Source: Paenibacillus sonchi (GTDB taxonomy: Bacteria > Bacillota > Bacilli > Paenibacillales > Paenibacillaceae). From it: a DNA stretch of 64,000 bases. Under the pieces are notes generated by a model. It did not search any database and had not been told where the DNA came from. It saw only the letters and a list, made by a program, of their open reading frames with translations. Below, one piece after another: positions 128-24,047 of this stretch. The stretch is from the NCBI RefSeq assembly GCF_016772475.1, contig NZ_CP068595.1:4774001-4838000 (forward strand), read 5' to 3'. The translations under genes and the position numbers were made by a program. Each line of letters begins with the position of its first letter. Positions within the stretch are counted from its first letter, which is position 1.

Positions 128-156
128 TTGACACTATATTAGTTGTGGACTAGAAT
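128..156 (+). promoter_or_regulatory. sigma-A-type promoter of the biosynthetic operon
   Basis: TTGACA at 128-133 and TAGAAT at 151-156 are separated by 17 bp, close to the housekeeping consensus. It lies in an AT-rich 300-base stretch with no other convincing feature, leaving an untranslated leader of about 140 bases before the first gene. It is the only strong promoter seen before the long co-directional gene run that ends near 24.05 kb. Confidence 0.7.
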
Positions 157-300
157 GGTCTATATTATCGAATAAAGTATAAAAATAGCAAAAATATAAT
201 AAATTTATTCAAAAACAAAAATTTAAAAGAGATGTAATGCTCAATGAAGTATTCTTGAAAAAGGCTTTAGAACGTTTACTTAATTACAAGGAGGGCGTTT

Positions 301-2001
301 ATGAGCAAGTACATATTAGGTTTATGTTTATCAGATCATGATTCTTCCGCGTGCTTAATCAAGGATAACCGGATTTTGGTTGCGATCAGCAAAGAAAGAC
401 TAACCCGCATTAAACGGCATGGATGCTCCAAAGGCGACTTTGATAATGAAAGCGTTCAATATTGTCTTGACTATGCGGGAATTTCCATTGACGATGTCGA
501 TTTAATTGTCCAGAACAGCATTTTTACATACCTCAGCGATCCTGCCTACTATGAAACTCTTCAACACTACAAAGGCAGTCATAATTACAGCGAGCGAATC
601 ATTAATATGACACAGCATCCTGTCCTTCCTATTTCGCATCATTTAGCACATGCCTACTCTTCCTACTATTTATCTCCTTTCGATGAAGCTGCGATATTGG
701 TTATTGATTCTATGGGCAATGAAGATCACTCTGTGATGAATTTTTTTCAGGGAGAAGATCGGGAATTTCTATTATCTTCCGGGTACCGTGCAACAGGAGG
801 GTGGGAGAGGGAATCCGTATACACAGCCAAGGGCGGAATAATTACGCCAATAAGCAAACGTTTCGCACGGGACACACAACCGTATGACAGCTTAATAAAA
901 GGGTTCGGCATCATGTATCATGAGGTCTCGGAATACATATTCGGAGATGGTCACAAAGCGGGGGAGACCATGGGGCTTGCTCCTTTCGGCAAAGCCGATT
1001 ATCCGTTGGGCGCTGTTTCATTTACGGAAGAAGGGTACGCGTTCAATGATCAGTGGCTGAAGAAACTGGATAAGCCGCATCTATCCATGGATCAGTGGAA
1101 CGACAGATTTGAGGAATTTGCCAGTTTGGCATATCAGGTGCAAACAGAACTTGAGGATTCGCTTATTCACATGTGCAATCGTATCCACAAAGAGACGGGA
1201 CTTGATCACCTGTGCTTGGCTGGAGGCATTGCATTGAATAGCGTAACCAACAAAAAAATTCTTGACCATACGCCGTTCAAATCCGTTTTTATCCCACCGG
1301 CTGCCGGCGACAGCGGGATCAGCATCGGCTGTGCGCTTAAAGGGTACCGGGAACTGGGCGGTTCGCCCAAGGAATTTGTTTTTCTCAATGATTATCTGGG
1401 GAAGACATATTCCAATGAGGAGATTGTGCAGGCCATTGAGAACTCCGGACTGCAATTCCGCAAATCCGAGGATATCTGCAAAGAGGTCGCAGGGTACCTG
1501 AGCGAAGATCAGATTATCGCCTGGTTTCAGGAAGGAAGCGAATTCGGGCCGAGGGCGCTGGGACACCGCAGCATTCTATGTCAGGCTACAAGTATTGAAA
1601 TGCGGGATTCCCTGAACGCGAGGGTGAAATTCAGGCAGAGCTTCCGGCCATTCGCCCCGAGTGTCATGGAAGAATATGCTCCTGATTTTTTTGAAATGGA
1701 TTTCAAAAGTCCCTTTATGCTCATGGTCACTGATGTCAAGAAGGATAAAGCTGATGTTGTGCCCGGAATAGTGCATGTAGATGGTACCGCCCGGGTCCAG
1801 ACTGTGACGGAGGAAGAAAACGGCATTTACTACAGATTGATTAAAGAATATGCCCAGTTAACCGGAATCCCATTGATTCTCAATACTTCGTTCAACGTCA
1901 ACGGCGAACCGATTGTTGAAACCCCTGCCGATGCTCTGAACTGTTATAAATCTACTAACATAGATATTCTTGTGATTGGTGATTATATCATCAGCAAATA
2001 G
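301..2001 (+). CDS. NodU/CmcH-family O-carbamoyltransferase
   Basis: 566 aa, a full-length member of the carbamoyltransferase family, which uses carbamoyl phosphate and ATP to carbamoylate a hydroxyl (or amine) of a small molecule. The N-terminal Kae1-like half shows HDSSACL near residue 13 and the metal-binding HHLAHAYSSY motif at about 113-122. The C-terminal YrdC-like half shows EFGPRALGHRS at about 415. An AAGGAGG ribosome site at 289-295 fixes the ATG at 301. It is the first gene of the cluster, so it probably tailors the final product or an intermediate. The family is certain; the substrate is not visible from sequence. Confidence 0.93.
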   Translation: MSKYILGLCLSDHDSSACLIKDNRILVAISKERLTRIKRHGCSKGDFDNESVQYCLDYAGISIDDVDLIVQNSIFTYLSDPAYYETLQHYKGSHNYSERIINMTQHPVLPISHHLAHAYSSYYLSPFDEAAILVIDSMGNEDHSVMNFFQGEDREFLLSSGYRATGGWERESVYTAKGGIITPISKRFARDTQPYDSLIKGFGIMYHEVSEYIFGDGHKAGETMGLAPFGKADYPLGAVSFTEEGYAFNDQWLKKLDKPHLSMDQWNDRFEEFASLAYQVQTELEDSLIHMCNRIHKETGLDHLCLAGGIALNSVTNKKILDHTPFKSVFIPPAAGDSGISIGCALKGYRELGGSPKEFVFLNDYLGKTYSNEEIVQAIENSGLQFRKSEDICKEVAGYLSEDQIIAWFQEGSEFGPRALGHRSILCQATSIEMRDSLNARVKFRQSFRPFAPSVMEEYAPDFFEMDFKSPFMLMVTDVKKDKADVVPGIVHVDGTARVQTVTEEENGIYYRLIKEYAQLTGIPLILNTSFNVNGEPIVETPADALNCYKSTNIDILVIGDYIISK

Positions 2002-2048
2002 GTGAAAAATATCACAATTCACCTAATGCCTGCTTGGGAGGAATGGGT

Positions 2049-2618
2049 TTGGGAGACAAACTGATTTGGGAACCGCATGCCGTATTATTTCCGATGCCTA
2101 CTGTAATTATCTCTACCGCATACGAGGGGAAAGAAACCGTTGACACCTGTGCCTGGCTGATGCCGGTGAACCTGGATCCCCCTATGATAGCGCTTGCGCT
2201 AAGGCCGAAATATTTATCATGGGAATATATTAAACAAAGCGGAGAATTTGCAGTTAATATCCCTTATGAGAATCAAACGGAATTTACAGATTATTGTGTC
2301 AGGACAAGCGGTTACACCGAGGACAAGCTGTGCGAGACCGGATGCAATGTGTTTTACGGTAAACACATCAAGGCTCCTCTGTTAAGCGACAGTATAATCA
2401 ACATGGAATGCGCTGTGAAAGAGACTTATGAGATTGGCGGAACGCACAGCATTTTTGTCGCTGAGGTTCTGCAGACATATTTTGATGAGAAGATCGTTGT
2501 TGACAGGGATTGTGATAATTTGAACGATGCCGTATCGCTTCAGAATGCCAAAGGCATTGCATATGTAATGGGTGAGTATTGGAATCTAGGCCATTGTATA
2601 GGCTTAAGGAGTGAGTAG
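2049..2618 (+). CDS. flavin reductase-like FMN-binding protein
   Basis: About 189 aa, a flavin reductase-like split-barrel protein (flavoredoxin/FMN-binding family). The N-terminal IWEPHAVLFPMPTVIIS stretch and the PKYLSWEYIKQSGEFAVNIP stretch are typical of flavin-binding proteins of this kind. The GGGAGGA ribosome site at 2036-2042 best fits a TTG start at 2049; an ATG at 2043 is too close to it. No flavin monooxygenase partner is encoded in the cluster, so it may supply reduced flavin or electrons to another enzyme here, or act directly on a substrate. It ends one base before the next start codon region. Family good, role inferred. Confidence 0.82.
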   Translation: MGDKLIWEPHAVLFPMPTVIISTAYEGKETVDTCAWLMPVNLDPPMIALALRPKYLSWEYIKQSGEFAVNIPYENQTEFTDYCVRTSGYTEDKLCETGCNVFYGKHIKAPLLSDSIINMECAVKETYEIGGTHSIFVAEVLQTYFDEKIVVDRDCDNLNDAVSLQNAKGIAYVMGEYWNLGHCIGLRSE

Positions 2619-2619
2619 G

Positions 2620-4205
2620 ATGGCAGTAAGCAGCGGATTTCGGCCAACAACCGATGATCTGGTTCTTAGCTCAGGCAATAAAGAGATTTTTATGAACATG
2701 TTCATGCAGTTGATGAAAAAAGGGGTAGAATTCAAGCTGAGAGAACCCGTAATCAACTTTGTTGAGCCGGGTGAACTGAACGGTATTCTTGATCGTTTTA
2801 CAGTCAAGCAAGAAGGCATTGAGCTTGTAGAGCTTCTGAATGACTTTGAGACGCTTGGCAAGTATTCGCTTAATTTCAGTTCCGCGAATTTCCTCGCCCA
2901 GCCTGATAGCGGCAATTCAATAGCCGGATTACTGGGGAAATCGGCAAGGTTTTTTTACAGCAGAATACCGTCAATTATGAATATTCACCTGCAGCGACAT
3001 TGTTGGAGATTAAACTTCTTACTTTGCTGCGGGAGATTATTGGTTACCAAGTGCTGCCCAATCCGAAACTGCTTGCCGTCAATACTGGCGGTGCCTTTAC
3101 TTTTGGAGGTTATGGTTCCAACATGTCCTGCTTGCTGGCTGCACGAGAGAAACTTAAGGAGAAGTTGAGGGCACAAGGAAAAATATTTAATCCCAGAAGA
3201 ACAAAGGTAATAGCGGCGGTGCCTTTTGCCCATTATTCGTTGCGCAGAAGCCTGGACATCCTCGGGCTGGGCAATAAGGATCTGTCCGATATCCAACTGG
3301 TGGAAAATGGGCTTGACCGGGAAGCGACCATTCATGTGGAAACGGAGCATTTCCGCATGAATATCTCTGATTTGGAATGCAAGATTGTGGAAGCGGAGGC
3401 GGACGGGACAGATATCATGGCCATCTATGCCATCGCCGGTGAAAGCCGGGCCATGGGGTTTGACCAATTGGCGGAGATTGCCGAACTTGCCCGTAAGCAT
3501 GACATATGGCTGCATGTGGATGCTTGCCAGGGCGGGCAATGTTTGTTTAGTCCCAAACTGAGGAGAACGTTGTTGAACGGAATTGAGCAATGCGACAGCA
3601 TAGCGCTTGATCCGCATAAAGTGTTTTTGTTGCCTTATAATTTAAGTGCTTTCTTTTTAAGAAATCCAAAGGATTTATATTTATTGCCGAAGGGGTCCAC
3701 AATTATCAGCAATGAAGATGATTCTTTGGGGAAATTTACTCCCGGGATCGGAAGCAAGGGATTTATATCCCTGAAACTGTATTTCATGCTGAGGCATTGG
3801 GGGCTGGAGAATGTTGGGCTGGAGATTGACCGGAGGCATGAGCTTGCATTAAGAACCGTTGACATGACCGGACAATTCGAACAGTTGGTAGTACTTAATC
3901 CTGAACCACAGCATAACTCCGTCATGCTTATGTATAAAACGCCGGGATACAGGCATGATCATGTGCTTTTTAACCAGGTTAACCAAAAGATTCATAAACG
4001 CATGACTGAACATGGAACGTATATGGTTCACACTTTTCCCAGTATTGATGATGAGTCCGTAATCAGTAGCAACAAGAGCGTGCAATTCTATCCGCTTCGC
4101 TTGATGTTTGGAAATCCAAACTCTACGGAAGAGAATATCCTGGGCTGCTTAAAAACCATTATTGATCTTGGAGATGAAATCCTGCGTGAACTTAATGTGG
4201 AATAA
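2620..4205 (+). CDS. group II PLP-dependent decarboxylase (frameshifted as read)
   Basis: Repaired length is about 528 aa. It belongs to the PLP decarboxylases related to glutamate, tyrosine and aromatic L-amino acid decarboxylases. HVDACQGG supplies the conserved Asp region, and DPHKVF carries the PLP-binding Lys at about residue 334. The frame breaks at 2938-2940: adding one A to the AAA run joins LLGK to IGKVFLQQNTVNYEYSP and restores a normal family sequence. An AAGGAG site at 2606-2611 supports ATG 2620. It may make an amine building block, or act as a non-decarboxylating lyase. The exact substrate cannot be read. The stop overlaps the next gene. Confidence 0.85.
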
Positions 4206-4977
4206 GCCAAAAGTTAGCGTGATTATGCCCGTCTATAACCGTGAGGAAGTTCTCAGCTGCGCCATTGAAAGTGTACTGAACCAAGACTATGCAAAATTTG
4301 AACTGATCATTGTCGATGATTGCTCGACTGACGGCACGCCTGAAATAATCAGCAAATATGAAAAGCTGGATAAACGTATACGTACTGTGCGGAATGAAAT
4401 GAACAGCAGGCTTGCCCCGCAGGAATGGGAGCCGCGTAACGATGGTCTGAAACTCGCCCAAGGTGAATATGTTGCCTATCTGGATTCGGATAATGAATGG
4501 TGGCCGTCGTTTATCGGGGATATGTCGAAGGTGCTGGAGATGAACCCGGAGATACAGCTGGTCCATTGCAACAGTCTTAATTTCTATCCGCCTCAAGTAC
4601 TCCAGCGTGTTATGGCATCGGATCAGCGAAAACTAGTCTATTGCGGGAATGATTGTGCATGCTTCAGCTGTGAGGAGCTGATCGAAAGCGAATTCGGTGC
4701 TGCCGTCTATATCGATACCAATGAAATGATGCATAGGGCTTCTGTATTCCGGGAGATCGGCGGCTACTGGAATACTTTCCACCCGAGGCGTAAGGAGATT
4801 CAAGCCTACCAAGGCAACCGCTATTTGTATCGAAGACATAATGATCAGGATTTGTTTGAACGCATCTATTACCGTTATTCACGCCAAAGCATATATCATT
4901 TAAACAAAATGCTTGTCAATTATTATTATCCCGGTTCCAACCGCACTCGTCAGCCGCAATGGTTCGAGCATATTTAG
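4195..4977 (+). CDS. family 2 glycosyltransferase
   Basis: 260 aa with a GT-A fold. VSVIMPVYNREEVLSCAIES at the N terminus and LIIVDDCSTDGT are the nucleotide-binding segments. DSDNEWWPSF contains the DxD metal-binding motif. It has no membrane segment, so it is a soluble cytoplasmic sugar transferase using a nucleotide sugar. The start at ATG 4195 overlaps the end of the decarboxylase gene, which suggests translational coupling. In this cluster it probably adds a sugar to the product. Some GT2-like enzymes instead move amino sugars or make glycolipids, so acceptor and donor stay open. Confidence 0.88.
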   Translation: MWNKPKVSVIMPVYNREEVLSCAIESVLNQDYAKFELIIVDDCSTDGTPEIISKYEKLDKRIRTVRNEMNSRLAPQEWEPRNDGLKLAQGEYVAYLDSDNEWWPSFIGDMSKVLEMNPEIQLVHCNSLNFYPPQVLQRVMASDQRKLVYCGNDCACFSCEELIESEFGAAVYIDTNEMMHRASVFREIGGYWNTFHPRRKEIQAYQGNRYLYRRHNDQDLFERIYYRYSRQSIYHLNKMLVNYYYPGSNRTRQPQWFEHI

Positions 4978-4998: not shown

Positions 4999-6266
4999 TT
5001 GTCAATTCTTGACACTGTAATCGAGAACAGTCTCGAGTCGTTGAACATCGAGCATTTTTATAACGATTATCTGGTTGCGGACAAGCGTACGCCTGTCCAT
5101 GATATGAGCCTGGGTGAAATTGCAAATGTCCATTATTCCGAAAATCAATATGGTCTGTATAAGCGGTTTCTTACAGAGCATGATTTGCAGAACAAACTGA
5201 CCAGATATGGGGGGGCTGAAGGAACTCTTGAAACGGTATTAATAACCGCCAAGCATGCAGGAGCGTTAACCGGTTTGTCTGAACTTGACGAAAGGCATAT
5301 CACATTTTTTGACGGTGCGCAGGATGCCATATCCAATGTCATCTCTTGCACGGTATCGCCGCTTGGCTCCGGCTACCGCAACAAGCAATTTGTTCTTGCA
5401 GCCATTCCCTCGTATCCTTATGCTGCATCTATCCTTAATCAGAAGTGCGGCGTGAAACTGTTCCAGGCTTTTTCTGGGGATGAATTTGCCCAAGGGGTCG
5501 TAGATTGCATTGATGAAACGATAGGGGCCATTCTGGTTAATATTCCGCAAAATCCGCTTGGCTACATCCTTACCGCTGATCATGCGGAAAGAATCAACCA
5601 TGCGGCGCGGTTGCACGATTGCGCAATTATTGTGGATATGGTCTACGCGGGATTTACGGACAAAGGCGATATTCAACAGGCATTAAGCCAATTTGATCCT
5701 GAACGGACCATTTACTGCGACAGTTTTTCCAAAATTTTTGGTCTGCCGGGGCTCAGGCTAGGGATGGCCTTCAGTAGCAATCAACAAATTTGCAGTGCAC
5801 TGAGAGCTGTTAAGAGCGCCCATTCGCTGCTGCCCAGTGCACTGAAGTATTTGTTTATCGGTTATTTGCTGAAGAATCATCAAGAACTGATCGAAGCGAT
5901 TCAATCCTCTTTAAGGATGCGGCATCATCTCTTTGCGAGCAGCTTTGAATCTTTGAACAGCTCAGCCGCCAGGCTGTTTCCCTCCGATAATCATTTGTAC
6001 CGGTGCATTGATCTGGGGGGATGTCCATCACTTCAGATAAAGCGTTAGATGAATGGACGTATTCGTTAGAGAAGATGACCGGGGTCAGAGTTACCTCTGG
6101 AAGCAAATTTTTTCCAAACCTTAATTTCGTGCAGAATCATAGTCCCAAATATATGTATTGCAGCAGCGGGCAGACCCATAAGCCGTTCTGGCGGATTTCA
6201 TTGGGGAAAGAATCCGAAATTGAAGCAGTCTCGCAAAAAATATGCAATTTTCTCAGAAACCACTAG
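4999..6266 (+). CDS. class I/II PLP aminotransferase (frameshifted as read)
   Basis: Repaired length is about 422 aa. It is a fold-type I aminotransferase of the histidinol-phosphate/aspartate family. NPLGY is the cofactor-ring segment, IIVDMVY holds the conserved Asp, and DSFSKIFGLPGLRLG carries the Schiff-base Lys at about residue 245. The frame breaks in the G6 run at 6015-6020: one more G joins IDLGG to MSITSDKALDEWTYSLEKMTG, and the C-terminal domain continues to 6266. AAGGAGA at about 4985 precedes the TTG start. It likely transaminates an alpha-keto acid or alpha-amino acid precursor in the pathway. Confidence 0.86.
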
Positions 6267-6279
6267 AAAGGATCAAAAG

Positions 6280-7343
6280 ATGATGGCTGTATATACACAT
6301 GAGCTTTACAACAGAATTAGCCTGGGTTGGAATCAGGATGAGAAGTTTATTCCTGAAATAGCAGCTAAGTACCACGAGTATATCACCGAAATATTCTTCT
6401 CACCCCGCTTGCTTTAAAGCTAGGCAACGGTAAGGAGCATTACAAGGAACTGGAACTGGAAGCTTACAGAGAACAATTGACTGAGATTAAAGCTGCGTAT
6501 CCCCACATTGGCTTAAACATGCTATACAACTTCTTCTGTATGGGAGATCATTTAAAGCCGGATAAAATCAAGAAATTGCTGGATATTCCGCAAAAATTAG
6601 ACGTAGGAATTGAGATGCTTTCCGTCTCAAACTTGCTGCTGGCCGAGATTATTATGAAAGAACTTCCTCATATCAAACTCCATTTATCTGTCAGATTGAA
6701 CATTGACACGTTCGAAAAAGTCGCATTTCTGGTAGATAAATACGGGGAAGATTCGATTTATTGCATCAATCTGGGCAGGAATTCGGTTTACCAGCTGCCG
6801 CTGTTTCAAAAATTAAAGAGGGAATTCCCCGGTATCAAATATAAGATAATCCTCAATGAGTTCTGCACCAGGGATTGCCTGGATTCGGATCTGCACAGCC
6901 AAATGAAGGCCCACAACTCATATTTGCACGTCGAACGGTTTCTGTGCGCTTCTTATCAAAAGCATAACTGGTGGCGCTATTTTACAGGGCAAGGTATTCT
7001 GCCGAACGATATCCATCATTGGTTTGGCCAGATGGATATCTTCAAAATATCTTCCAGATGGCTTCCCACAGATCAAATCGCAAAAATTATGGAGTTCTAC
7101 TTGAATGGAGAGGAAGTCAGCCTGGGAGATATTATCTATACCATTGGTCAAGGCGGTACACGCTTCAGGTATAATCCGGAGTTCATGGCCGAGATTGATG
7201 TGGACAGGAAATATCCCCAAGATTATTGGAACCGCCGCTCCAAGTGCAAGTTCAACTGTACTGAGTGCGGCTATTGCAAACAAGTAGCCGACAGCTTTCT
7301 TAAAGGGGGGAGCAACAATGGAACGGCTGTTGTCTCATCTTAA
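6280..7343 (+). CDS. U32-peptidase-like putative Fe-S protein (frameshifted as read)
   Basis: Repaired length is about 354 aa. The barrel-like sequence resembles the U32 family (UbiU/UbiV/TrhP group), in which non-peptidase members hold a 4Fe-4S cluster and carry out oxygen-independent hydroxylations. Visible cysteines are C196 and C200 in NEFCTRDC with a His near 212, and a C-terminal cluster C323, C327, C330, C333 (KCKFNCTECGYC). The frame breaks at the C4 run 6403-6406; a fifth C joins IFFSP to PLALKLGNGKEHYKELELE. Two adjacent ATGs (6280, 6283) follow AAAGGATC. A hydroxylase role on the pathway intermediate is an inference; assignment to U32 is by motif only. Confidence 0.6.
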
Positions 7344-8553
7344 CTATTTAAAAATGCATGTGCCCTTTTATATGGAGAGAAACCACCAAGCTACTTCCAT
7401 TGCGGAACTTCCAATAATGACAAAGGACATGATCCGCAAACAATACGGCGAATTCTTCAGTAATGAATTTGCCGAAGTAAAAGATCGCCTGGTTGAGTTT
7501 GTGCGGAATCCCGCCATACAAAAAGACCGTACAGACAATGAGCTGTACTTTTCTGAAGATATTATCGTTGAAGAAACTACTGGAACCAGCGGTGTTCCGT
7601 TTCGGTGTGCTAAGACCAAGCCGGAACGGGCCGTACTCTCCTTAGGGATCTGGAAGCAGAGACGGCGGCTGGACCGGAAGGTTAGCCCCGGAAATCTTTT
7701 TCAATTCAATCATATCGGCAAAGATGCTGACAAATTGGATATTTACAATTATGATCCTGAGAATTTATTGAAAATTTACGGCAAAGTCAAGGATGCAAAC
7801 GCCCGCTGGCTGCATACTCCACCCAGTACCATTCAGCATCACGTTGCTTCCTTGCAAAAAAATAATATCCAGCTTGATCTCCCCAAATTAAAAGTGATTG
7901 AGTGCAACGGAGAGTATCTTCGGCCGGAGACGAAAAAGATAATTGAGGAATATTTCAACGTTCAGGTCGTCAATCAGTATGGAACAATCGAAACATGGAC
8001 AATCGGATTGAGCTGTGCCTGCGGCAATTTACATATTAATGAGAATGTGCATGTTGAACTGGTTGATGATGACAACAATCCTATCACCAAGCCCCATGTT
8101 ACGGGACGGCTACTGCTGACTGCGCTTTCGAACCGGTTGCTACCCTTTACACGCTATCTGTCGGGTGATTACGGATACTTTAATGAAGAAACTTGCGGTT
8201 GCGGCAATCCGAACCCCACATTTACGGTCCTTGAAGGCAGGGAGATCAATTTGATCAAAGGCTGCAAAGAAAAATTGTACGGAAATGTGTTTTTCCATCA
8301 GATGGTTAGAAGAGTGCTTAGAGAGCGGCAGATTCCCGGGCTGGAATATATACAAGTCATTCAATCCAATTTGGACCATTTCAATGTCTATACGAATTAT
8401 TTTGATGAGGTAGAAGTGTTCATGGAATTATTTGCTTCCGCAGCCTGTCTGTGTATGGAGCGAGACGTTGCCTTTCAGCACAATATTTTAAGCGAGAGTG
8501 AAATTGTACGGAAGCAGCGAGAGAAGCCGAATGTATTCATTTGCAGATGTTAG
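7318..8553 (+). CDS. PaaK/CapK-like adenylate-forming enzyme
   Basis: 411 aa, related to phenylacetate-CoA ligase and coenzyme F390 synthetase-type proteins. PIMTKDMIRKQYGEF near residue 35 and the ATP-binding TTGTSGVPF at about 88-96 are typical. QYGTIE near 221 corresponds to the adenylation A5 region. Two CxCG motifs (SCACGN near 239, TCGCGNPNPTF near 298) could bind zinc, as in other PaaK-like members. It overlaps the end of the U32-like gene (GGGGGGAG ribosome site), so it is part of the operon. It should activate a carboxylic acid as an adenylate, for CoA or ACP loading or direct amide formation. Confidence 0.8.
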   Translation: MERLLSHLNYLKMHVPFYMERNHQATSIAELPIMTKDMIRKQYGEFFSNEFAEVKDRLVEFVRNPAIQKDRTDNELYFSEDIIVEETTGTSGVPFRCAKTKPERAVLSLGIWKQRRRLDRKVSPGNLFQFNHIGKDADKLDIYNYDPENLLKIYGKVKDANARWLHTPPSTIQHHVASLQKNNIQLDLPKLKVIECNGEYLRPETKKIIEEYFNVQVVNQYGTIETWTIGLSCACGNLHINENVHVELVDDDNNPITKPHVTGRLLLTALSNRLLPFTRYLSGDYGYFNEETCGCGNPNPTFTVLEGREINLIKGCKEKLYGNVFFHQMVRRVLRERQIPGLEYIQVIQSNLDHFNVYTNYFDEVEVFMELFASAACLCMERDVAFQHNILSESEIVRKQREKPNVFICRC

Positions 8554-10113: not shown

Positions 10114-10330
10114 ACCCGAAATGGATTTACCTGATTCAGCGGCTCCTGATACGGATCTGATGAACAGTCTAGGATTCGATTCCATTCAGTTAATCCAGCT
10201 GATAGTGAACTTAGAGACAACGCTGGATTTTGAATTTGAAGACCAGGATATGTCGATGGAACACTTTTTGAAATTGGAAGATTTAGTTCATTTGGTAGAG
10301 CAACGGATCACAGAACAAACCACATTATAA
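10061..10330 (+). CDS. acyl carrier protein
   Basis: 89 aa, acidic, four-helix carrier protein. The motif LGFDSIQL places the phosphopantetheine Ser at about residue 41. The start is taken as ATG 10061, inside the 3' end of the ligase gene; ATG 10067 is an alternative. Directly after an acyl-AMP ligase and upstream of a BtrH-like protein, it is the natural tether for the acyl intermediate. This arrangement is comparable to the ligase, carrier and acyltransferase steps of butirosin side-chain assembly. Confidence 0.92.
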   Translation: MAMRSVQQEVWKLIKEIKPEMDLPDSAAPDTDLMNSLGFDSIQLIQLIVNLETTLDFEFEDQDMSMEHFLKLEDLVHLVEQRITEQTTL

Positions 10331-10350: not shown

Positions 10351-11352
10351 ATGATTTCGTACATTTTAGAAGGACCCAAAAATATGATACCGGTGGATGC
10401 TGAAATTCCGGAGCCGTCCCCGTATGAAGTCCGCATCAAAATAGCTTATACCGGTGTATGCGCCTCGGATATTTCCATCTATCTTGGTAAACGATCGCCG
10501 GAAATGTATACGGAAGGCCCAGTACTGCTTGGTCATGAGCCTTCGGGAGTTATAGACAAGATAGGAAGCATGGTCACTGGGTTAAGGGTTGGTGACCGTG
10601 TTACCTGTATAGGTGTCTGGGGCTGTTTCTCCGAATATGTAGTCACTGAGCCGATGAATGTGTTAAAGCTGCACCCTGACCTTTCTTTGGTTGACAGCAG
10701 TATAGTTGAAGTTTTGCCGAGTATAGCGATGACTGCCATGAAAACGGGAATTACGGAATCGAGCGATGTTCTGATCTATGGACAAGGTTTGACCGGACTG
10801 ATCATGACCCGTCTGGTCCGGTTCTTCGGTTGTAAAAAACTGATCGTTGCCGATCTATATGAAGAAAAGCTGCGGATTGCCAAAGAATTCGGTGCAACTT
10901 ATTTCATTAATACTTCTACCGAAAATATGACGGAGCGGATCAAAGAAATTGTACCTGAAGGCGTTGATATTGCCATTATTGCCACGCGGGACGGCAATGA
11001 TGTGGAGAAAGCTATCGACTGGACCAGAATAAGAGGGAAGATCGTTAACTTTGGCGGAATTGGCCCCTGCGACGGATTTGACTACTTTAAACTGCACAGA
11101 AAGGGACTTTCTGTGGTTAAAGAAAGTATGAATATTTCAGGTGTATTCGAGCACCGCAAACTGTGGCGTGACGCGATGGAGTTGGTAGCGGACGGGATTC
11201 TGCCGACACCGCGCCTTCGGACGCATATTTTTCCTATGGATCAATTACAACAAGCTCTCGATTTACGTGCAGAATGCAGTGCCGGTGCGATTCATGTATT
11301 GATGGAGAATGAGTGGGCGCGCGAGAAAAGGCTCAACGGAGAATTTTTCTAA
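10351..11352 (+). CDS. zinc-type alcohol/polyol dehydrogenase (MDR)
   Basis: 333 aa, medium-chain dehydrogenase/reductase. Catalytic zinc ligands are seen as C37 (TGVCASD) and H65-E66 (LLGHEPSG). A Rossmann segment follows (VLIYGQGLTGLIMTRLVRFF). The four-Cys structural zinc lobe is absent; only one Cys remains in GVWGCFSEYV, as in some sugar dehydrogenases. GGAGG at about 10338 precedes ATG 10351. It likely oxidises an alcohol or reduces a carbonyl of a sugar- or polyol-like pathway intermediate with NAD(P). Specificity cannot be called. Confidence 0.88.
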   Translation: MISYILEGPKNMIPVDAEIPEPSPYEVRIKIAYTGVCASDISIYLGKRSPEMYTEGPVLLGHEPSGVIDKIGSMVTGLRVGDRVTCIGVWGCFSEYVVTEPMNVLKLHPDLSLVDSSIVEVLPSIAMTAMKTGITESSDVLIYGQGLTGLIMTRLVRFFGCKKLIVADLYEEKLRIAKEFGATYFINTSTENMTERIKEIVPEGVDIAIIATRDGNDVEKAIDWTRIRGKIVNFGGIGPCDGFDYFKLHRKGLSVVKESMNISGVFEHRKLWRDAMELVADGILPTPRLRTHIFPMDQLQQALDLRAECSAGAIHVLMENEWAREKRLNGEFF

Positions 11353-15727: not shown

Positions 15728-17477
15728 GCCGGGGTCTTCCTGGAGAGTACTCACCTCCCTGTTGCAAATCAACAGAAAATTGTGGCCACAGTATGTATTT
15801 TTAATCATTTGTATTATTTTGGCCGCTGGCATTGATGTGGCGGGAACTGAAGCGTTCAGACGCATGATTTCGGCCGCCACCGACAGTAATATGGGGGCTC
15901 TGCGGGAGTCTTTATTGCTGGCTGGAGGGGTTATAGCCGGAACTGTAATTCTAGGGTCCTGTGCTTCCCTGCTCACGGAATTTGTAAATTACAGATCTTC
16001 GGTGCATCTGGAATCTTTAATGGTTCAAAAATTACTTCATATGAATATTGCCTCCCATAGAAATTACCACTCCGGAGATCTGGTGAAGAGGGTAAGCGAC
16101 AATGCACGCAACGGCCAAATTGCACTGAACAATAATCTGATGGACGGGTTCCGGGTATTTGCAGTCATTGTTCTAAATCTGGTGTATTTGAGCGCTATTA
16201 ATATCCTGTTTACCGTAAGCTGCCTTGTTGTCGCGCTGCTTCTTCCCTTCGCTCTAAAATACTTGTCCCGAAAATTAAATGTCATTTACGGGCGTAAGCT
16301 CGATGCCGAATCGGCGCTGAATGCATTCACGCAGGAGTGTATTGACGGCGCCGAGGTGGTCCGTACCACCTCTCTGGGGGAGCGGACCGATTCAATCTTC
16401 CACAGCAAATATGCGGAATTCATGAAGTGGACCAAAAAGGGGATCTGGTTCGAGTCGCTAACGAATCAGGTGAACTTTTTTATCCGTATCGGCGGCATGA
16501 TCTTCATCATTGGCTACGGCGGTGTTCTCGTCAAGCAGGAGATCATTGGTGTCAGCAGCGTTGTAGCCTTTATTCTCGTATTCTGGAGAATGCTTAATCC
16601 GATATCCAATGCTATGGTGATGTGGCCCAGAGTTCAGAATTCGTTAAGCCAATTGTCCCGTGCATTGGAGATTCTTGAAATGGAGGAAGAACGCGGTATA
16701 CATAATGGTAATGAAATGTCCCGGAGCAGCAGTGAACCGGCGATGGTACAGTTCTCCAATGTAAGCTTTGCTTATTCGCCCGGTAGAGTTGCGCTCGACG
16801 CCATTTCTTTTACGGTGAAAGCAGGCACTGTTACGGCAATCGTTGGCCCAAGCGGAAGCGGAAAAAGTACAATACTTCAGTTACTCCTCGGGTTTCTGCA
16901 ACCAGCGTCAGGAGAGATCAGGATTGGTTCCGCACTGCAGGCAGAGCGTGGTGTTTTGCAATGGCGAAGTGATATTTCGTATATCAGCCAGGAAATGTAT
17001 GTGTTCTCCGGGACCTTCTTTGAGAACATTGCTTTGGGTAAGCTTGATGCTACCTTGACAGAGGTTATGGATGCAGCCCAAAAAGTAAACATGCACGATA
17101 TGATCATGAGTACGCCTGAAGGCTATGGTACCTTGATCGGTGAAGGCGGGCTGACACTCTCCGGCGGAGAGTGCCAGCGGATCTCCATTGCCCGGGCACT
17201 GCTGAAGCAGGCCTCCATTTTTGTAATGGATGAACCTACCTCTGCGCTGGATGGAGAGAATGAGGCGGCTATCTTTCGGGAATTTAAGAACATGATTAAG
17301 GATAAGACGCTAATTATTGTCAGCCATAAGCCGTTGCGGTTGGAGCAGGTGGACCAATACTTGTATCTGGACCATGGACAGATTGTGGAACAGGGAACTT
17401 ATGAGCAGTTGATTGCCCGGAAGGGCAAATACTACAACTTGCTAAACGGATATGCAGAGGAGCATGATATCGCATGA
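15708..17477 (+). CDS. ABC exporter half-transporter, fused TM-ATPase (first of pair)
   Basis: 589 aa with an N-terminal exporter-type membrane domain (about 20-310, six predicted helices) and a C-terminal ATPase. Walker A GPSGSGKST is at about 380, the signature LSGGECQRISIARAL, Walker B IFVMDEPTSALD and the H-loop VSHKPL. AGGAGGGGG at 15691-15699 supports the TTG start, which lies inside the radical SAM gene. It overlaps the next ABC gene by 4 bases; the two probably form a heterodimer that exports the cluster product, giving self-protection. Confidence 0.92.
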   Translation: MKQSENKPGSSWRVLTSLLQINRKLWPQYVFLIICIILAAGIDVAGTEAFRRMISAATDSNMGALRESLLLAGGVIAGTVILGSCASLLTEFVNYRSSVHLESLMVQKLLHMNIASHRNYHSGDLVKRVSDNARNGQIALNNNLMDGFRVFAVIVLNLVYLSAINILFTVSCLVVALLLPFALKYLSRKLNVIYGRKLDAESALNAFTQECIDGAEVVRTTSLGERTDSIFHSKYAEFMKWTKKGIWFESLTNQVNFFIRIGGMIFIIGYGGVLVKQEIIGVSSVVAFILVFWRMLNPISNAMVMWPRVQNSLSQLSRALEILEMEEERGIHNGNEMSRSSSEPAMVQFSNVSFAYSPGRVALDAISFTVKAGTVTAIVGPSGSGKSTILQLLLGFLQPASGEIRIGSALQAERGVLQWRSDISYISQEMYVFSGTFFENIALGKLDATLTEVMDAAQKVNMHDMIMSTPEGYGTLIGEGGLTLSGGECQRISIARALLKQASIFVMDEPTSALDGENEAAIFREFKNMIKDKTLIIVSHKPLRLEQVDQYLYLDHGQIVEQGTYEQLIARKGKYYNLLNGYAEEHDIA

Positions 17478-19216
17478 AGCATAAAGGAGCCTCCATCTTC
17501 TTGAGAGTATTCACTTATGTGAAGAACGGCAAAAATCTGCTTCTGTTTGGCCTGATTTTATTGATGGTTGATGTCGCTTTTAATATCGGCATAGCCAAGG
17601 TTCAGCAGTCCTTTTTGGATGTTCTGAATCAAGGGGATTTCAAGCGATTATCCTTCTATCTGATTGTGTTTTCCATCTGCTTCTTGCTTGCGATGATTCT
17701 TACCTTTGTGGGCTATTTCTTCAGAGAATATTCTTTTTCTTTGCTGACAAGAAATTTTCAGTTTGACACCTTCTCCATGCTAAACAAGTTGCCTTATGAA
17801 GAGCTCAAGGGACGGCATTCCGGGGATTTGATATCCCGCGCCTCCTATGATGTCCAAGACTGCAGCAGACATTTGAAAGACGGGCTCTTCGGGATTTTTG
17901 AGAACGCACTGCAGTTTGCTGTTGCTTTGACCTATTTGTGCTTTATCAATTTTCCGCTGGCCGTTACAGTGGCCATTACGGGCGTCCTTATCTTTTTTTG
18001 CAGCAGTATATTTAATCCCAAGCTCCGGAAAATATCTTCAGAAATATATAACAAGGAGTCTGATATCAAGAATTTAATTAAAGAAATGGCGCAAGGAATT
18101 TCTGTCGTGAAGGCTTACGGGCTGCAAAGCTATTTCGGGGAGAAATATGCAAAGTATAGAAGGGATACTTATCTGTTATACAGGAAAAGCATACTCACCA
18201 ATGTGTTTATGCAGCAACTGCTGAATATTATGAGGGAATCAGTCTGGATCATAGGTGTATTTCTGATCTGTCTTTCCGCAATAAACGGAGAAATGACGGT
18301 TGGCCTTGTGCTTACCTTCACGTTGCTGATGAGTCAGGTTTTGTGGCCGTTTGTAATTATCGCAGATCGCTGGAGAACACTGAATAACAGCTACGGATCT
18401 GCATATCGGGCACTGGATCTTGCCGCCTTCGGACAAAATTCGCAATCGGAGAAGATAGAAGTCACAAATCCATTATTGCCTCCCGCAGAAGACATTGCCG
18501 TCCTATTGCGCAATGTATCGTTTAAGCCGGACAAAAGCGTCGAAGAGCCGCTGTTTGAGTCTTTTGATCTTGAAATCCGCCGAGGTGAGAAGGTAGCCAT
18601 CGTGGGGGCAAGCGGTTCAGGGAAGAGCTCCCTGCTGAAATTGATAACCGGTCTTTACCGGCATGACAGCGGACTAATAACGATTTTTGATAAGCAGGTT
18701 GACGGAACTTCTGAAGTAAAGGACTTTTATTCCTATGTTCCGCAGCATAATTACCTGTTTACGGGAACAATTAGCGAGAATATATCCTTCGGAGCAATTT
18801 CCTTTGATGATGACCATATCAAACGCGCTGCTGAGGCAGCCAATGCGGATGAGTTTATTTCCCAGCTTGAGCAGGGGTACAGCACTCCCGTAAAAGAGGG
18901 GGGAGCTACACTATCCGGCGGACAAAAACAGCGGATTGCCATTGCAAGGGCAATGTTAAAGAATGCCCCGTTGCTTATTTTGGATGAAGCTACATCTTCT
19001 TTGGATCGCCGGAATGCGATGAAAATTCAACGCTTACTGGAAAGCTTGCCAACAGAAACAACGTGTATTTTTGTGACGCATTCCCCTGCTTCCCTGTCCT
19101 TTGTAGATCGGATTGTCATACTGGAGAAGGGGCGGATAGCAGCCTCGGGAAGTCTTGAAGAACTAACACAGCGAAATCTTCTTTATCAGGAGTTATTTAA
19201 CTCCGCCGAAGTTTGA
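17474..19216 (+). CDS. ABC exporter half-transporter, fused TM-ATPase (second of pair)
   Basis: 580 aa, same architecture as its upstream partner. The membrane domain spans about 1-310. The ATPase shows Walker A GASGSGKSS near 378, the signature TLSGGQKQRIAIARAML, Walker B LLILDEATSSLD and H-loop FVTHSPASL. Both halves keep the Walker B Glu, so neither site is obviously dead. It begins with ATGA overlap. Heterodimeric export of the pathway product is inferred from pairing and position. Confidence 0.92.
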   Translation: MKHKGASIFLRVFTYVKNGKNLLLFGLILLMVDVAFNIGIAKVQQSFLDVLNQGDFKRLSFYLIVFSICFLLAMILTFVGYFFREYSFSLLTRNFQFDTFSMLNKLPYEELKGRHSGDLISRASYDVQDCSRHLKDGLFGIFENALQFAVALTYLCFINFPLAVTVAITGVLIFFCSSIFNPKLRKISSEIYNKESDIKNLIKEMAQGISVVKAYGLQSYFGEKYAKYRRDTYLLYRKSILTNVFMQQLLNIMRESVWIIGVFLICLSAINGEMTVGLVLTFTLLMSQVLWPFVIIADRWRTLNNSYGSAYRALDLAAFGQNSQSEKIEVTNPLLPPAEDIAVLLRNVSFKPDKSVEEPLFESFDLEIRRGEKVAIVGASGSGKSSLLKLITGLYRHDSGLITIFDKQVDGTSEVKDFYSYVPQHNYLFTGTISENISFGAISFDDDHIKRAAEAANADEFISQLEQGYSTPVKEGGATLSGGQKQRIAIARAMLKNAPLLILDEATSSLDRRNAMKIQRLLESLPTETTCIFVTHSPASLSFVDRIVILEKGRIAASGSLEELTQRNLLYQELFNSAEV

Positions 19217-19257: not shown

Positions 19258-20289
19258 ATGAAAACCAAGCTAGACGAGCTGTCTCTTGAGGCAAAGAAAG
19301 CTATACTACAGGCGAAGAGTCTTGCCGAACTGAATGAGTTGCGGGTGAAATATTTCGGCAAGAAAGGACTCATTACCGAGATTTCCAAAAACATGAACAC
19401 CCTCAGTTCGGAAGACAGACCCATAATCGGCATGATGGTTAATTCGGTAAGAGAATCTATAAAAGATCAGCTGAACGGGAAATCGAAAGAAATTGAGCAG
19501 GGAATACTAAAAGAACAATTGTCTAAGGAAACCATTGACGTTACGCTGCCGGGAAATCCGGCTCCTATAGGCTCGGTTCATCCGCTCAGCAAGGTTACTC
19601 AGGAGCTAGAGGATATTTTTATTGGCATGGGCTATTCCGTCGAGGAAGGCCCCGAAGTAGAAAGGGATTACTATAACTTTGAAGCTCTGAATCTTCCCAA
19701 GGATCATCCGGCTCGGGATATGCAGGATACATTCTATATTACGGAAGAGATTTTGCTGCGATCCCATACTTCCCCGGTGCAGATAAGAACTATGGAGCGA
19801 ATGAAAGGTCAAGTTCCGGTCAAAATTATTTGCCCGGGGAAAGTATACCGCCGCGACGATGATGTCACCCATTCCCATCTGTTCACACAGATTGAGGGGT
19901 TGGTGATTGACCGCCATATCAGAATGAGCGACCTGAAGGGAACCCTGCTTCAATTTGTGCAGAAGATGTTTGGGACTCAAACGCAAATCCGGTTGCGGCC
20001 CAGCTATTTTCCGTTCACGGAGCCCAGTGCGGAAGTGGATATATCCTGTATGTTCTGCGGTCAGGCAGGGTGCAGAATTTGCAAAAACAGCGGGTGGATC
20101 GAAGTGCTTGGCTCAGGTATGGTTCATCCGAATGTATTGGAAATGTCAGGATACGATTCAACCCAATACAGCGGGTTTGCATTTGGGGTCGGTGTGGAGC
20201 GGATAGCGATGCTTAAATATGGTGTGAATGATATCCGCAACTTCTACACCAATGATTTACGGTTATTGACACAATTTAATCATATATAA
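19258..20289 (+). CDS. pheS: phenylalanyl-tRNA synthetase alpha subunit, cluster copy
   Basis: 343 aa, complete PheS: N-terminal coiled coil (about 1-90), then the class II catalytic core with motif 2 region ([21 protein letters not shown], quoted only in part: KVYRRDDD) and motif 3 [14 protein letters not shown]. The pocket Ala equivalent to E. coli Ala294 is kept. The next position after FAFG is Val, where Bacillus-type PheS as I recall it has Met. ATG 19258 follows GGAGGGG. It sits between the exporters and a BtrH-like gene, so it is probably a second genomic copy serving resistance or a dedicated aminoacylation. Whether a housekeeping pheST exists elsewhere cannot be seen. Confidence 0.93.
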
Positions 20290-20336: not shown

Positions 20337-22462
20337 ATGAAAGTATCCACTACTTGGTTATCCGAATATATAGATTTGAAAGGATATACAGGCGAAGAAC
20401 TGGCAGAACAATTAACCGCCCATGGAATTGAAGTAGACAGTGTGCTGTCAACTGATGAACTTTACGGACAGGAGTCATCGCTTCAAGAGACGAAGGATAA
20501 CATTCTCGACCTGGATCTTACACCCAACCGTTCAGATTGCCTCAGTATCATCGGCACGGCATATGAAATGGGGGCAGTGCTGGGAAGATATATGGATAGC
20601 AACAGTCTGAACCGTTACAACGTGTCCTCCTATAATTATTCACCTCTGAATTCATTCTCGGTTAATAACGAGGCAGAGCAGGAATGTAAGTGTTATGCAC
20701 TTGCATTAATAGAGAATGTTCAGATAGGGCCTTCACCGCTATGGATTCAGCACCGCTTGTCCGCTTTGGGAGTTGCACCGGTCAATAATGTGTGTGATTT
20801 TGCCAATTATATTATGCTTGAATGCGGTCAACCTATTAATATATATGATGCGGATCAATTTTCCGGTGCCCAGATACAGATCCGGTTTGCCGATGAAGAA
20901 AACATCATGACTGCAGATGGTCTGAAAAGGACAGTCGATTCCACGGCCCTGCTTATTTCAGATGGACGGAAGCCTGCTTCCATTGCCGGTATTGCCAATG
21001 CTGCCGACTATGAAATATCACCGGGTACCCATAGAATATTGATAGAATCCGCCCACTTCTCAGGAAGTGTCACTCGTAAGACCTCCAGGAAGCTTGGGTT
21101 GCGCAATGAAAAGACTGTTCGCTTTGAAAAAGAAATTAATTTGGAGATGATTCTCCCTGCGCTGTTGCGGGTCTCGGAGCTGATCGTCGCTGCTTCACCT
21201 GGGGCTAAACTGTCCGGTGTCTCACATTGGCAGTATGCACCTATTGAACACAAGACCATCAAAGTGAGCCAAGAAAAGATCAATCGCTATCTGGGTACTG
21301 AAATATCCGGAGAACAAATTGAAGCAATTCTGAAATATCTCCATTTTCCATTTGAGATTCCGGAGAATTCTGTCTATCTCATCTCCGTTCCTAAACGACG
21401 GGGGATATTAGCCAGGAGGTCGATATCATCGAGGAAATCGCCAGATTGTACGGCTATGAGCATATTCCTGTGTCTCTGGTACAGGGCGTTACAACACCAG
21501 GAAAATTAACGAATGAACAGCGGATCCGGCGCAGCATCAGACATATTTTAATTCAAAACGGGTTTAACGAGACGATCACATATTCTTTGACTCACCCTAA
21601 GCATTTCAATATGATCCCTGTAAACCCGCTGTATCCACAAGCCGTCTTCTTGAACAATCCCATGACAGAAGACCGCTCCATGCTGCGGATGAGTCTATTG
21701 CCTCACCTTCTGGAGACAGCGTCGTTCAACTTGAAATATGGTACAGAGAACGTTTCTATATTCGAAATTGGTAATATCTATTGCAGTAATGAGCCCGTTT
21801 TAACGCAGCTGCCGCAGGAGTTCCCCTGCCTGGGGATGCTGCTCACGGGGAAACGGAATCACTCCCACTGGAATTGCCCAGCCCAACCAGTATCTTACTA
21901 TGACATAAAGGGAACTGTCGAGAAGATGCTGAACTATCTGGGGATTGAAAACTATTCCTTTGAAGGGGCCAAAATCCAAGGTCTTCATCCCGGGCGGACA
22001 GCAAGCATTTACTTAAAGGATAACGACGGTAATCCAATTTACGTTGGTTATGCGGCACAGTTGCATCCGGATGTCCAGAAACAATATGACCTTAAGGAAA
22101 CCTTTGTGCTGGAGCTTTCTCTCAAGCCTATCTATCGACTAACCGATTTTGGAATATCCGCTCAATCGGCACCGAAGTATCCTTCGGTCCAAAGGGATAT
22201 CGCGGTAGTGGTGCATGCCCATGTTTTCGCCGCTGCAATGATTGCCGGCATCAAATCATCCGCAGGAGAATGGTTGGAAGAGGTGTCTATTTTTGATGTC
22301 TATTCCAGCGGCAGTCTGGCCCAGACAGGCCAGAAGAGCATTGCCTTCTCGCTTGTGTTCCGTCATCCGGACCGGACGCTTACGGATGATGATATCTATC
22401 CGGTATATGAACGAGTGGTTAATACATTAAAAGAACAATTCGCTGCCGAATTAAGACAATAA
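20337..22462 (+). CDS. pheT: phenylalanyl-tRNA synthetase beta subunit, truncated and editing-degenerate (frameshifted as read)
   Basis: Repaired length about 708 aa versus roughly 800 for a normal PheT. The N-terminal MKVSTTWLSEYIDLKG runs directly from HGIEVDSVL (about 29-37) into LDLDLTPNRSDC (about 57-68), so the roughly 100-residue EMAPII-like tRNA-binding domain is absent. The B3/B4 editing region is present but altered: QPINIYD has Asn168 where the family has His (QPLHAFD), GIANA (218-222) replaces GxMGG, and Lys259 lies where E. coli has Ala356; Glu237 is kept. The C-terminal anticodon-binding domain is intact. The frame breaks at the G5 run 21400-21404; a sixth G restores DISQEVDIIEEIARLYGYEH. 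See the PheS entry for role. Confidence 0.9.
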
Positions 22463-22475
22463 AGGGCGGAATGCG

Positions 22476-24047
22476 ATGTTAACAAGAAATGGTGCCGATA
22501 AGCAGGAAAGAAATGTTCTCGGTCATATTCGTCCCCTATATAGCTCCTATACGCTGGATTATGTCAATTGTCTGGAGAATCCCATAGGTCTCGCAGTAGA
22601 AGGAATCCGGCCGCAGTACGGAGCTCTCTTCTATATCGGCCTGAAGCTCTTTAGAGCCTACAACCATCATCTAAAGGCCGAAGGGGAGTCATTTCAATTT
22701 TACATGGGTCAGGCGCTGGCTGCCTGCGGGTTACAGTTGCATTTTTTAAACGGGATAGAGGATTTGGTTTCTGCGGTGAAAGCGGAAATCGACCGGAGAA
22801 ATCCTGTTTTTGTTTTTGGGAATTTAAAGGAATTATATTATTCCAATCATTATAAAACCTCAGATTGGATGCATAATTTTCTTATCAAAGGATACGACGT
22901 TCATAAGAAGTTGTTCATGGTAATTGACGGATGTCAGAAGAAAAACGACGAACATAACTACGAGGAGTTTGTAATCCCCTTTGAAATTATGGACCTGCTG
23001 AATGCTTCTTTCATCGAAACGTACGGTCATCCTTGTGTCTTCTCCATCATCAAATCAGATAATCCGCCACCGGGGCGAATTGAACTTTTATTGGACTATA
23101 TTGATTTTATGTCTACGCAGCTGGCAACACAGCCATATAAAGAGCTTGAAATGATGAAGAACGGTATCGGTGGGGAGGCCCCTTCGATCAATTCGCTCAG
23201 TTTGCCGTTATTCGAAATTATTAAGAACAAGGATGTTCTATACTCGGAAATTATACGGGTTATGCTCGAAAGCTGCGTTGCTGAAGCAACCGTTAAAGAG
23301 CTCAATGAACACAAAGCTGTAATGTTAGCCCAGGGATATTTACTCATCAATAATTATGTCGTCAGCCAAACGCGGGGAAAACATTTTGATATTGAGGACA
23401 AAGCCGAATCATTTATCCAAGCGGACGGTGTACTGAGAGAATCGCTGATGCGGATCATTTCAGATTTGCGGGAGGAATTGCAAAGGTATGATGAGCAAAA
23501 GGAGACGCTGCTGGCGTTCGAAAACAATGCTGATCAAATTATTTCGCAAGCCAACGAAAAGGTAATCTTTAATTTTAAAGGAGATAAGCTGTATAACTGC
23601 TGGATCACAGATGAATCTCCAAAGGCAGTGCATCAGCAAACAGAGAAGCTGGCTAAAGATTTTTGGTTCTCGGCGGATATCGAATGCTCATCTTTGAGCA
23701 GCGAGGTTTTTTTTCACGCAGGACTAATCTTCAGAACAGCCCCCGGGGATTTATACTTTTGGGGAATCATGAACAATGAATCGGTAGTCCTTGGGAAAAC
23801 AGGTGAATTTCAGGAGTTGTTTATTTCCGAGCTCTATGCCCAGCCTCTTACATTAAGCATTCGAATGGAGAAGAATGGTTACCTGTTTGAACTGCATTCC
23901 GCCCAGTCGCGTAAAAGTGTGGCATTCAAGGCTTCTGAAATTGGACAAATTGTCCAAGTTGGACTAGGGTGCAAAACATGGAATCGGCCTGAGCCATTGA
24001 CCATCGAATTTAATCATTACGGATTTGTTACGCAATCAAGCATTTGA
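22476..24047 (+). CDS. BtrH-like N-terminal domain protein, putative acyltransferase
   Basis: 523 aa. The N-terminal 200 residues resemble the BtrH_N (butirosin biosynthesis protein H) fold: DYVNCLENPIGLAVEG near 29-44 offers a candidate catalytic Cys, and LYYSNHYKTSDWMHNFLIKG near 118-137 with VIDGCQ gives the His/Asp region. The C-terminal part (about 370-523) reads as a beta-rich, concanavalin-like module (VFFHAGLIFRTAPGDLYFWG). BtrH moves an acyl group from an ACP to an aminoglycoside, so this protein may transfer the ACP-bound acyl chain to an amine here. It closes the operon. Match is by motif recognition; moderate confidence. Confidence 0.6.
   Translation: MLTRNGADKQERNVLGHIRPLYSSYTLDYVNCLENPIGLAVEGIRPQYGALFYIGLKLFRAYNHHLKAEGESFQFYMGQALAACGLQLHFLNGIEDLVSAVKAEIDRRNPVFVFGNLKELYYSNHYKTSDWMHNFLIKGYDVHKKLFMVIDGCQKKNDEHNYEEFVIPFEIMDLLNASFIETYGHPCVFSIIKSDNPPPGRIELLLDYIDFMSTQLATQPYKELEMMKNGIGGEAPSINSLSLPLFEIIKNKDVLYSEIIRVMLESCVAEATVKELNEHKAVMLAQGYLLINNYVVSQTRGKHFDIEDKAESFIQADGVLRESLMRIISDLREELQRYDEQKETLLAFENNADQIISQANEKVIFNFKGDKLYNCWITDESPKAVHQQTEKLAKDFWFSADIECSSLSSEVFFHAGLIFRTAPGDLYFWGIMNNESVVLGKTGEFQELFISELYAQPLTLSIRMEKNGYLFELHSAQSRKSVAFKASEIGQIVQVGLGCKTWNRPEPLTIEFNHYGFVTQSSI

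Follow-up and report, generated by a model that had tools for sequence, protein, structure and literature searches.

The question raised by this locus is why a compact block of bacterial genes should carry a phenylalanyl-tRNA synthetase (PheRS) of its own. The locus lies in a stretch of 64,000 nucleotides of Paenibacillus sonchi (assembly GCF_016772475.1, contig NZ_CP068595.1, positions 4,774,001 to 4,838,000), hereafter the window, and comprises 18 genes that include pheS and pheT, for the alpha and beta subunits of PheRS. A preliminary description of this DNA had credited the cluster with its own PheRS, and both genes are indeed present, but they form a second copy: another pheS-pheT pair, the housekeeping one, is found elsewhere in the genome (two PF01409 loci), and for this reason the cluster pair is called spare here. 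The answer that we favour, with a probability of roughly 55%, is that the block would be a horizontally acquired cluster for an exported small molecule, in which the spare PheRS would act as a protected copy of the target. The block itself is almost certainly a biosynthetic gene cluster, and its spare PheRS is very likely tied to it in function; by analogy, self-resistance looks the better bet as the nature of that tie. The new observation made here is that the spare PheT lacks the B2 domain and carries altered motifs in its editing domain at positions that are otherwise conserved, with the domains of the catalytic side better kept.

The cluster copy shows the features of a bacterial PheRS, namely alpha and beta subunits, a catalytic core and the B8 anticodon domain. 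Its PheS is 64% identical to the housekeeping PheS and retains 153 of the 193 positions that are invariant in eight housekeeping PheS sequences (seven of them partial), differing at the other 40, for example by one residue missing in the RRDDDD stretch. The FHQIEG motif has Thr in place of His, a change also present in the best match in the PDB (2rhq), which we take to be a staphylococcal enzyme. The spare PheT is 45% identical to the housekeeping PheT of 815 amino acids (aa) and has lost about 100 residues spanning PF01588 (tRNA_bind, B2), a domain that the housekeeping PheT possesses. Among the best 120 of 2368 database matches to the spare PheT, PF01588 is listed in 119, the exception being the cluster's own protein. 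The spare copies were aligned with 119 database PheTs plus the housekeeping copy (n = 120), and the His of GQPLHAFD occurs in 120/120 of these other PheTs, with Asn in the spare copies, whereas the three positions of the MGG motif, conserved in 120, 120 and 119 of the 120, read Ser/Ala-Asn-Ala. Both this His and the MGG motif presumably belong to the editing site of PheT. With domain limits set by the analyst, the spare PheT retains 67 of 94 conserved positions in B3/4 versus 82 of 91 in B5, CLM and B8 (Fisher p = 0.0014), and its mean identity to the other PheTs over B3/4 is 0.46 where the housekeeping copy reaches 0.69; this decrease of 0.23 compares with one of 0.10–0.11 in B5, CLM and B8. 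A smaller comparison with 18 housekeeping PheTs, superseded by this larger set, had given 61 of 85 invariant positions retained.

A second PheT is rare in the genus. Judged by the number of matches, 3 of the 100 Paenibacillus genomes sampled have a second full PheT, those of P. sonchi and of two relatives (G026 and G030, the latter taken as P. jilunlii), as does one assembly with 10% contamination (G061). This last was rejected as a fourth case, given that contamination and a second PheT that is split and 38–45% identical; in the 11 kb read around it, only weak matches to ATP-binding cassette (ABC) proteins appeared beyond pheS and pheT.

The open reading frame listing of the window places all 18 genes on the plus strand between positions 301 and 24047. 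The intergenic gaps, by mechanically assigned starts, are of 54 bases or fewer and many are negative, with the single exception of the boundary between the end of the aminotransferase gene (6266) and the first start of the U32-like frame (6477); the two genes overlap in both relatives, and the large gap arises because a frame break conceals the true start of the U32-like gene. The promoter-like site ahead of the block ranks first among eight such matches in positions 1–2500 of both strands (nine-of-twelve level; 5.5 ± 2.5 in shuffles), and both hexamers are unchanged in G026 and G030. Terminator-like sites show no excess, either in 5000–24600 (15 versus 17.5 ± 4.5 expected, both strands) or in 1–2500 (1 versus 2.4). 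Searches with Rfam at the gathering threshold found no T-box in the window, nor in L003/L004, which bear the housekeeping pheST. The tight co-directional packing and the strong leading promoter proposed in the preliminary description were borne out, the latter as a promoter-like site. So was the lack of nonribosomal peptide synthetase (NRPS) or polyketide synthase (PKS) genes, since Pfam matched none of the 18 genes to a condensation, ketosynthase or thioesterase domain. Its picture of a compact, unassigned cluster with an own PheRS, an exporter pair, a carbamoyltransferase and a pair of radical S-adenosylmethionine (SAM) proteins is supported as well.

Both G026 and G030 carry the 18 genes in identical order, with flanks in register and with 94.1–99.7% identity per gene or piece (91.4% for one short aminotransferase piece). 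Scattering of the genes in related genomes, which the preliminary description had named as the outcome contrary to its proposal, was looked for, and the order proved to be retained in these two further genomes. Copies of the first radical SAM protein (rSAM1) at least 97% identical occur in 3 of the 100 genus genomes, again P. sonchi, G026 and G030; 54 of them have some match at E ≤ 0.001, with no listed match above 32% identity outside the three clusters. A database protein named for P. graminis is 97% identical. A scan of GTDB genome contigs gave 19 pattern matches, one of them encoding a relative (P. jilunlii), and would miss distant relatives because it was built on short exact patterns. 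Among 295 genomes drawn from the family, close copies of the GT2 glycosyltransferase were seen in P. sonchi and G030 only, G026 being absent from the matches shown.

At the P. sonchi site, the block is missing in all five of the other relatives examined. DNA homology to these cluster-free genomes breaks off 48 bases ahead of the window, where a PF00278 gene ends. That gene is preceded by a saccharopine-dehydrogenase-like one, and we take the pair to be carboxynorspermidine dehydrogenase and decarboxylase. The homology resumes at the deoxynucleoside kinases (25757–25834) in three of the five, and not within the ~10–12 kb read in the other two. The G+C content is 0.45 in the cluster versus 0.519 downstream and 0.533 upstream, that is, 7–8 points lower. 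Between G026 and G030, the ratio of nonsynonymous to synonymous rates (dN/dS) goes from 0.045 to 0.316 across the 18 genes, single ratios being rough because dS is only 0.017–0.181. The shared order, the absence from relatives, the low G+C and the low dN/dS together suggest one acquisition before these species parted, followed by retention under selection.

As for the pathway, an amino or aryl acid would be activated by one or both AMP-forming ligases and loaded onto the stand-alone acyl carrier protein (ACP), the decarboxylase and the aminotransferase would supply an amine partner, and methyl groups would be added by the radical SAM and SAM-dependent enzymes. The BtrH-like protein would take the chain off the ACP as a Cys thioester and hand it on to the amine. 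Glycosylation by the GT2 enzyme and carbamoylation by the TobZ-like enzyme may complete a product that would be exported by the ABC pair. Finally, this product would inhibit the housekeeping PheRS, and the spare enzyme would sustain Phe-tRNA synthesis, in a form of self-resistance by target duplication. The feature expected of such a system, a second copy of an essential aminoacyl-tRNA synthetase (aaRS) inside the cluster beside a housekeeping copy, is seen here, and the resistant aaRS copy ObaO of the obafluorin cluster offers a precedent.

Several points weigh against this reading. The Phe and ATP side of the spare PheS looks ordinary, not remodelled as that of an enzyme resistant to a Phe mimic might be. 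The slot in three of the cluster-free relatives is filled by ~2–5.5 kb of other DNA, so that loss in the relatives is conceivable beside gain here. The enzyme roles are those predicted from family membership, with the U32, PaaK-like and BtrH assignments under their curated cut-offs. Moreover, resistance needs no loss of editing, and such a loss could rather mark a biosynthetic role. A spare PheRS of that kind, with its editing disabled, would make a Phe or Phe-analogue adenylate, or a charged tRNA, as an acyl donor, in agreement with the loss of B2 and of the editing motifs while the other domains are better kept. However, activation is already supplied by two adenylating enzymes and the ACP, and Pfam matched none of the 18 proteins to transferases of the Fem/GNAT type or similar families, which count as tRNA-dependent. 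The available part of PMC9032320 nonetheless describes the albomycin cluster as likewise combining carbamoyltransferase, methyltransferase and radical SAM functions with an aaRS, and reports the seryl-tRNA synthetases (SerRS) AbmK (albomycin) and VlmL (valanimycin) as taking part in biosynthesis, a precedent that keeps this alternative alive. We regard it as unlikely, though the chief contender, and it is compatible with self-resistance, since the two roles are not exclusive.

The product might also act on the editing or tRNA side of PheRS, outside the Phe pocket, with the spare copy resistant through loss of that site. The deletion of B2, the heavier loss in B3/4 than in any other retained domain and the ordinary look of the Phe side of the spare PheS all fit this idea, but the changes in B3/4 may stem from relaxed constraint on an enzyme that is used only part of the time (6 nonsynonymous to 4 synonymous codon changes between G026 and G030, versus 7 to 16 elsewhere; p = 0.14, not significant) and we know of no natural product acting there, which leaves it improbable. 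The least probable of these alternatives takes pheST for a passenger unconnected to the product; aaRS genes do move horizontally, but this pair sits between the exporter and the last gene, at intervals of 41, 47 and 13 bases, and it is retained in all three genomes with dN/dS of 0.10 (pheS) and 0.20 (pheT). Some doubt could also fall on the cluster itself, as this assembly breaks the decarboxylase, aminotransferase and U32-like genes and pheT into two frames each, a correction to the preliminary description. Four private one-base frame changes within cluster genes might indicate a relic decaying in this strain. However, each of the 18 genes is an unbroken frame in both relatives, and the aligned 28 kb contain five private genic frame changes of P. 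sonchi, all of them one-base losses, with the fifth outside the cluster, in an aminotransferase gene presumably of the malY type that is split only in this assembly. In the relatives, this stretch has no genic frame changes apart from an adjacent pair in the RCC1 gene of G030. Because all five losses are private to one assembly, one lies outside the cluster and a further locus, of the histidyl-tRNA synthetase (HisRS) family, is apparently split too, the breaks are probably sequencing or assembly errors, and decay of the cluster is quite doubtful.

Table. Features of the window, with sequence evidence; "here" refers to the P. sonchi assembly and "relatives" to G026 and G030. PLP, pyridoxal phosphate.
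Feature	Coordinates	Strand	Evidence
Sigma-70-type promoter-like site	128..156	+	TTGACA-17-TAGAAT; 11/12 consensus positions
O-carbamoyltransferase, NodU/TobZ type	301..2001	+	PF16861 1.2e-68, PF02543 6.3e-38; HHLAH motif
Flavin reductase-like protein	2034..2618	+	PF01613 1.1e-28
PLP-dependent amino-acid decarboxylase; split here, 531 aa in both relatives	2611..4205	+	PF00282; DPHK motif
GT2 family glycosyltransferase	4162..4977	+	PF00535 1e-30
PLP aminotransferase class I/II; split here, 422 aa in both relatives	4999..6266	+	PF00155 7e-23; SFSK motif
U32-like Cys-rich protein; N-terminal part in another frame here, 374 aa in relatives	6220..7343	+	PF01136 5.4e-4, below cut-off
PaaK/F390-synthetase-like adenylating enzyme	7318..8553	+	PF00501 3.3e-5, NF045666 3e-21, both below cut-off; TTGTSG
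AMP-forming acyl/aminoacyl ligase	8563..10113	+	PF00501 1.1e-61, PF13193 1.6e-7; TSGSTGTPKG, TGK
Stand-alone acyl carrier protein	10052..10330	+	PF00550 8.6e-9, over cut-off; DSI motif (Ser attachment site)
Zn-dependent alcohol/polyol dehydrogenase	10351..11352	+	PF08240 1.9e-16, PF00107 3.8e-19
SAM-dependent methyltransferase	11313..12260	+	PF08242 4e-12
B12-type radical SAM protein 1 (rSAM1)	12315..14024	+	PF04055 2.7e-13; PF02310 and TIGR03975 4e-46 below cut-off; CX4CX2C
B12-type radical SAM protein 2 (rSAM2)	14021..15727	+	PF04055 3.6e-22; PF02310 7.9e-12 over cut-off; CX3CX2C
ABC exporter half-transporter 1	15708..17477	+	PF00664, PF00005; Walker A, LSGG, Walker B patterns
ABC exporter half-transporter 2	17474..19216	+	PF00664, PF00005; Walker A, LSGG, Walker B patterns
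Spare PheRS alpha (pheS)	19258..20289	+	TIGR00468 1e-108 over cut-off; PF01409
Spare PheRS beta (pheT); split here, 708 aa in both relatives	20337..22462	+	PF17759, PF03147, PF03484 over cut-off
BtrH-like transferase candidate	22476..24047	+	PF14399 9.9e-4, below cut-off; Cys32, His133, Asp151 invariant
RCC1-repeat protein with copper-amine-oxidase N-terminal domain	24139..25638	-	
Aminotransferase gene, presumably malY-like	27233..28410	+	
HisRS-family gene	37407..38693	-	PF13393 6.5e-40
Group II intron with reverse transcriptase/maturase gene	57063..58969	+	RF02003, RF00029; PF00078, PF08388

The carbamoyltransferase, ACP, AMP ligase, PaaK-like protein, decarboxylase and aminotransferase, as well as the GT2, methyltransferase, radical SAM and ABC proteins, show the expected sequence patterns, which we take to be catalytic signatures. 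Among the NCBIfam matches shown for the cluster, the pheS model alone scores above its curated cut-off; those of the aminotransferase are all below, and those of rSAM1 fall mostly in B12-type radical SAM families, every one under its cut-off. The PDB neighbours of the decarboxylase are headed by glutamate decarboxylase. The two B12 radical SAM enzymes of the preliminary description stand as far as the radical SAM domain and Cys pattern are concerned, but the B12-binding domain passes its cut-off only in rSAM2 (26.5 versus 32.1 bits in rSAM1). Likewise, its U32-like and BtrH-like proteins both score under the Pfam cut-offs (19.8 versus 22.4 bits for PF01136; 19.8 versus 29.7 for PF14399), the C terminus of the former being rich in Cys. 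Relatives of the U32-like protein were found in three genomes besides its own, of 299 drawn from the phylum (E ≤ 1e-8; 23–26% identical), and in their surroundings (19.9, 19.9 and 12.5 kb read) no other cluster gene was matched at E ≤ 1e-4. Two hints of known pathways were set aside: the TIGR03975 match of rSAM1, as a sign of a ribosomally synthesized and post-translationally modified peptide, because it scored under its cut-off, no search aimed at a precursor having been made, and a match of the ACP to AmcB, as a link to cispentacin (31.8 bits versus a cut-off of 80).

The last gene offers more detail. Scoring of 7995 candidates gave five relatives of the BtrH-like protein at E ≤ 1e-3, one of them of the cluster's own type, and the Pfam BtrH N-terminal label falls on one of the five. 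Cys32, His133 and Asp151 are invariant in the six aligned rows, two of which are cluster copies, and would be consistent with a papain-type triad. Alignments at E ≤ 1e-10 were obtained in 8 of 299 genomes of the class, that of P. sonchi included. One relative (G240; L090 8736–16874, minus strand), 22.9% identical over residues 13–514 of 524, is the C-terminal part of a 2712-aa NRPS that has two Condensation, two AMP-binding and two PP-binding domains, the best PP-binding stretch (2095–2158) lying just before a BtrH_N domain that passes its cut-off (2265–2338). According to the parts available of these sources, BtrH_N belongs to the ACP:aminoglycoside acyltransferase BtrH and is close to the C39/C70 families (PMC10318531), and BtrH is papain-like (PMC2922099).

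Some neighbouring features deserve mention in their own right. The RCC1-repeat gene lies between the cluster and the pair of deoxynucleoside kinases, and a 238-base DNA match to it was found in one of the five cluster-free relatives, within the DNA that fills the slot. In addition to the HisRS-family gene of the window, HisRS-family sequence occurs at two other places in the genome, one of which seems split in two frames (P. sonchi alone was examined). Further downstream, the window contains a group II intron.

Spare target copies in clusters are the basis of resistance-gene-guided mining, and an editing-degenerate PheRS inside a bacterial cluster would suggest that the compound is either directed at PheRS or built with it. 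In the available part of a review on aaRS inhibitors, PheRS is represented only by the Phe analogue ochratoxin A and by an effect of neomycin B, an aminoglycoside, on tRNA-Phe charging (PMC7916415). In the open-access papers covered, by title and the start of the abstract, nothing was found on this cluster or on any bacterial cluster with its own PheRS, and in one of the searches no entry among the matches listed contained 'phenylalanyl-tRNA synthetase'. A layout without NRPS or PKS may escape standard cluster callers, and the editing-degenerate enzyme offers a direct test of the need for PheRS editing and for the B2 domain. A more speculative possibility, to be held tentatively, is that a PheRS stripped of its tRNA_bind domain and of its editing function may be part of the pathway, either as donor of a Phe or Phe-analogue adenylate or as a copy resistant to a product acting on the editing side, which would define a new class of PheRS-directed natural product made through an ACP/BtrH route without NRPS or PKS.

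Among known systems, tobramycin offers the O-carbamoyltransferase TobZ, the closest PDB relative of the first gene (7e-82), this gene alone being compared. The preliminary description had also seen the logic of the butirosin side chain in this cluster. Apart from BtrO, BtrK and BtrH, the families of the Btr enzymes and the btr gene set are those that we take to be established. Both systems have a stand-alone ACP, a loading ligase, a flavin reductase, a PLP decarboxylase and, as a candidate here, a BtrH-type acyltransferase. The parallel holds in part. It does not amount to a close match, and its extension to the ligase and the decarboxylase fails: these belong to other families here (AMP-binding for the main ligase, PF00282 for the decarboxylase), and none of the Pfam matches in the cluster is to a luciferase-type monooxygenase, an ATP-grasp, a BtrG-like protein or a BtrK-type decarboxylase. 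The cluster adds a carbamoyltransferase, two radical SAM proteins and PheRS to this set. The roles of BtrH, BtrK and BtrO follow the accessible parts of PMC2922099 and PMC10318531. Albomycin, as described in the available part of PMC9032320, also has an aaRS, a carbamoyltransferase, a methyltransferase, a radical SAM enzyme and a PLP enzyme in its cluster, although its aaRS is a SerRS and not a heterodimeric PheRS, in a comparison made by description and not by sequence. Obafluorin, likewise compared by description and not by sequence, differs in its threonyl-tRNA synthetase (ThrRS) and its beta-lactone product; as in the present locus, however, an extra copy of an aaRS lies in the cluster, in that case a copy of the target, the resistant ObaO, a ThrRS that obafluorin does not inhibit according to the part available of PMC10619133.

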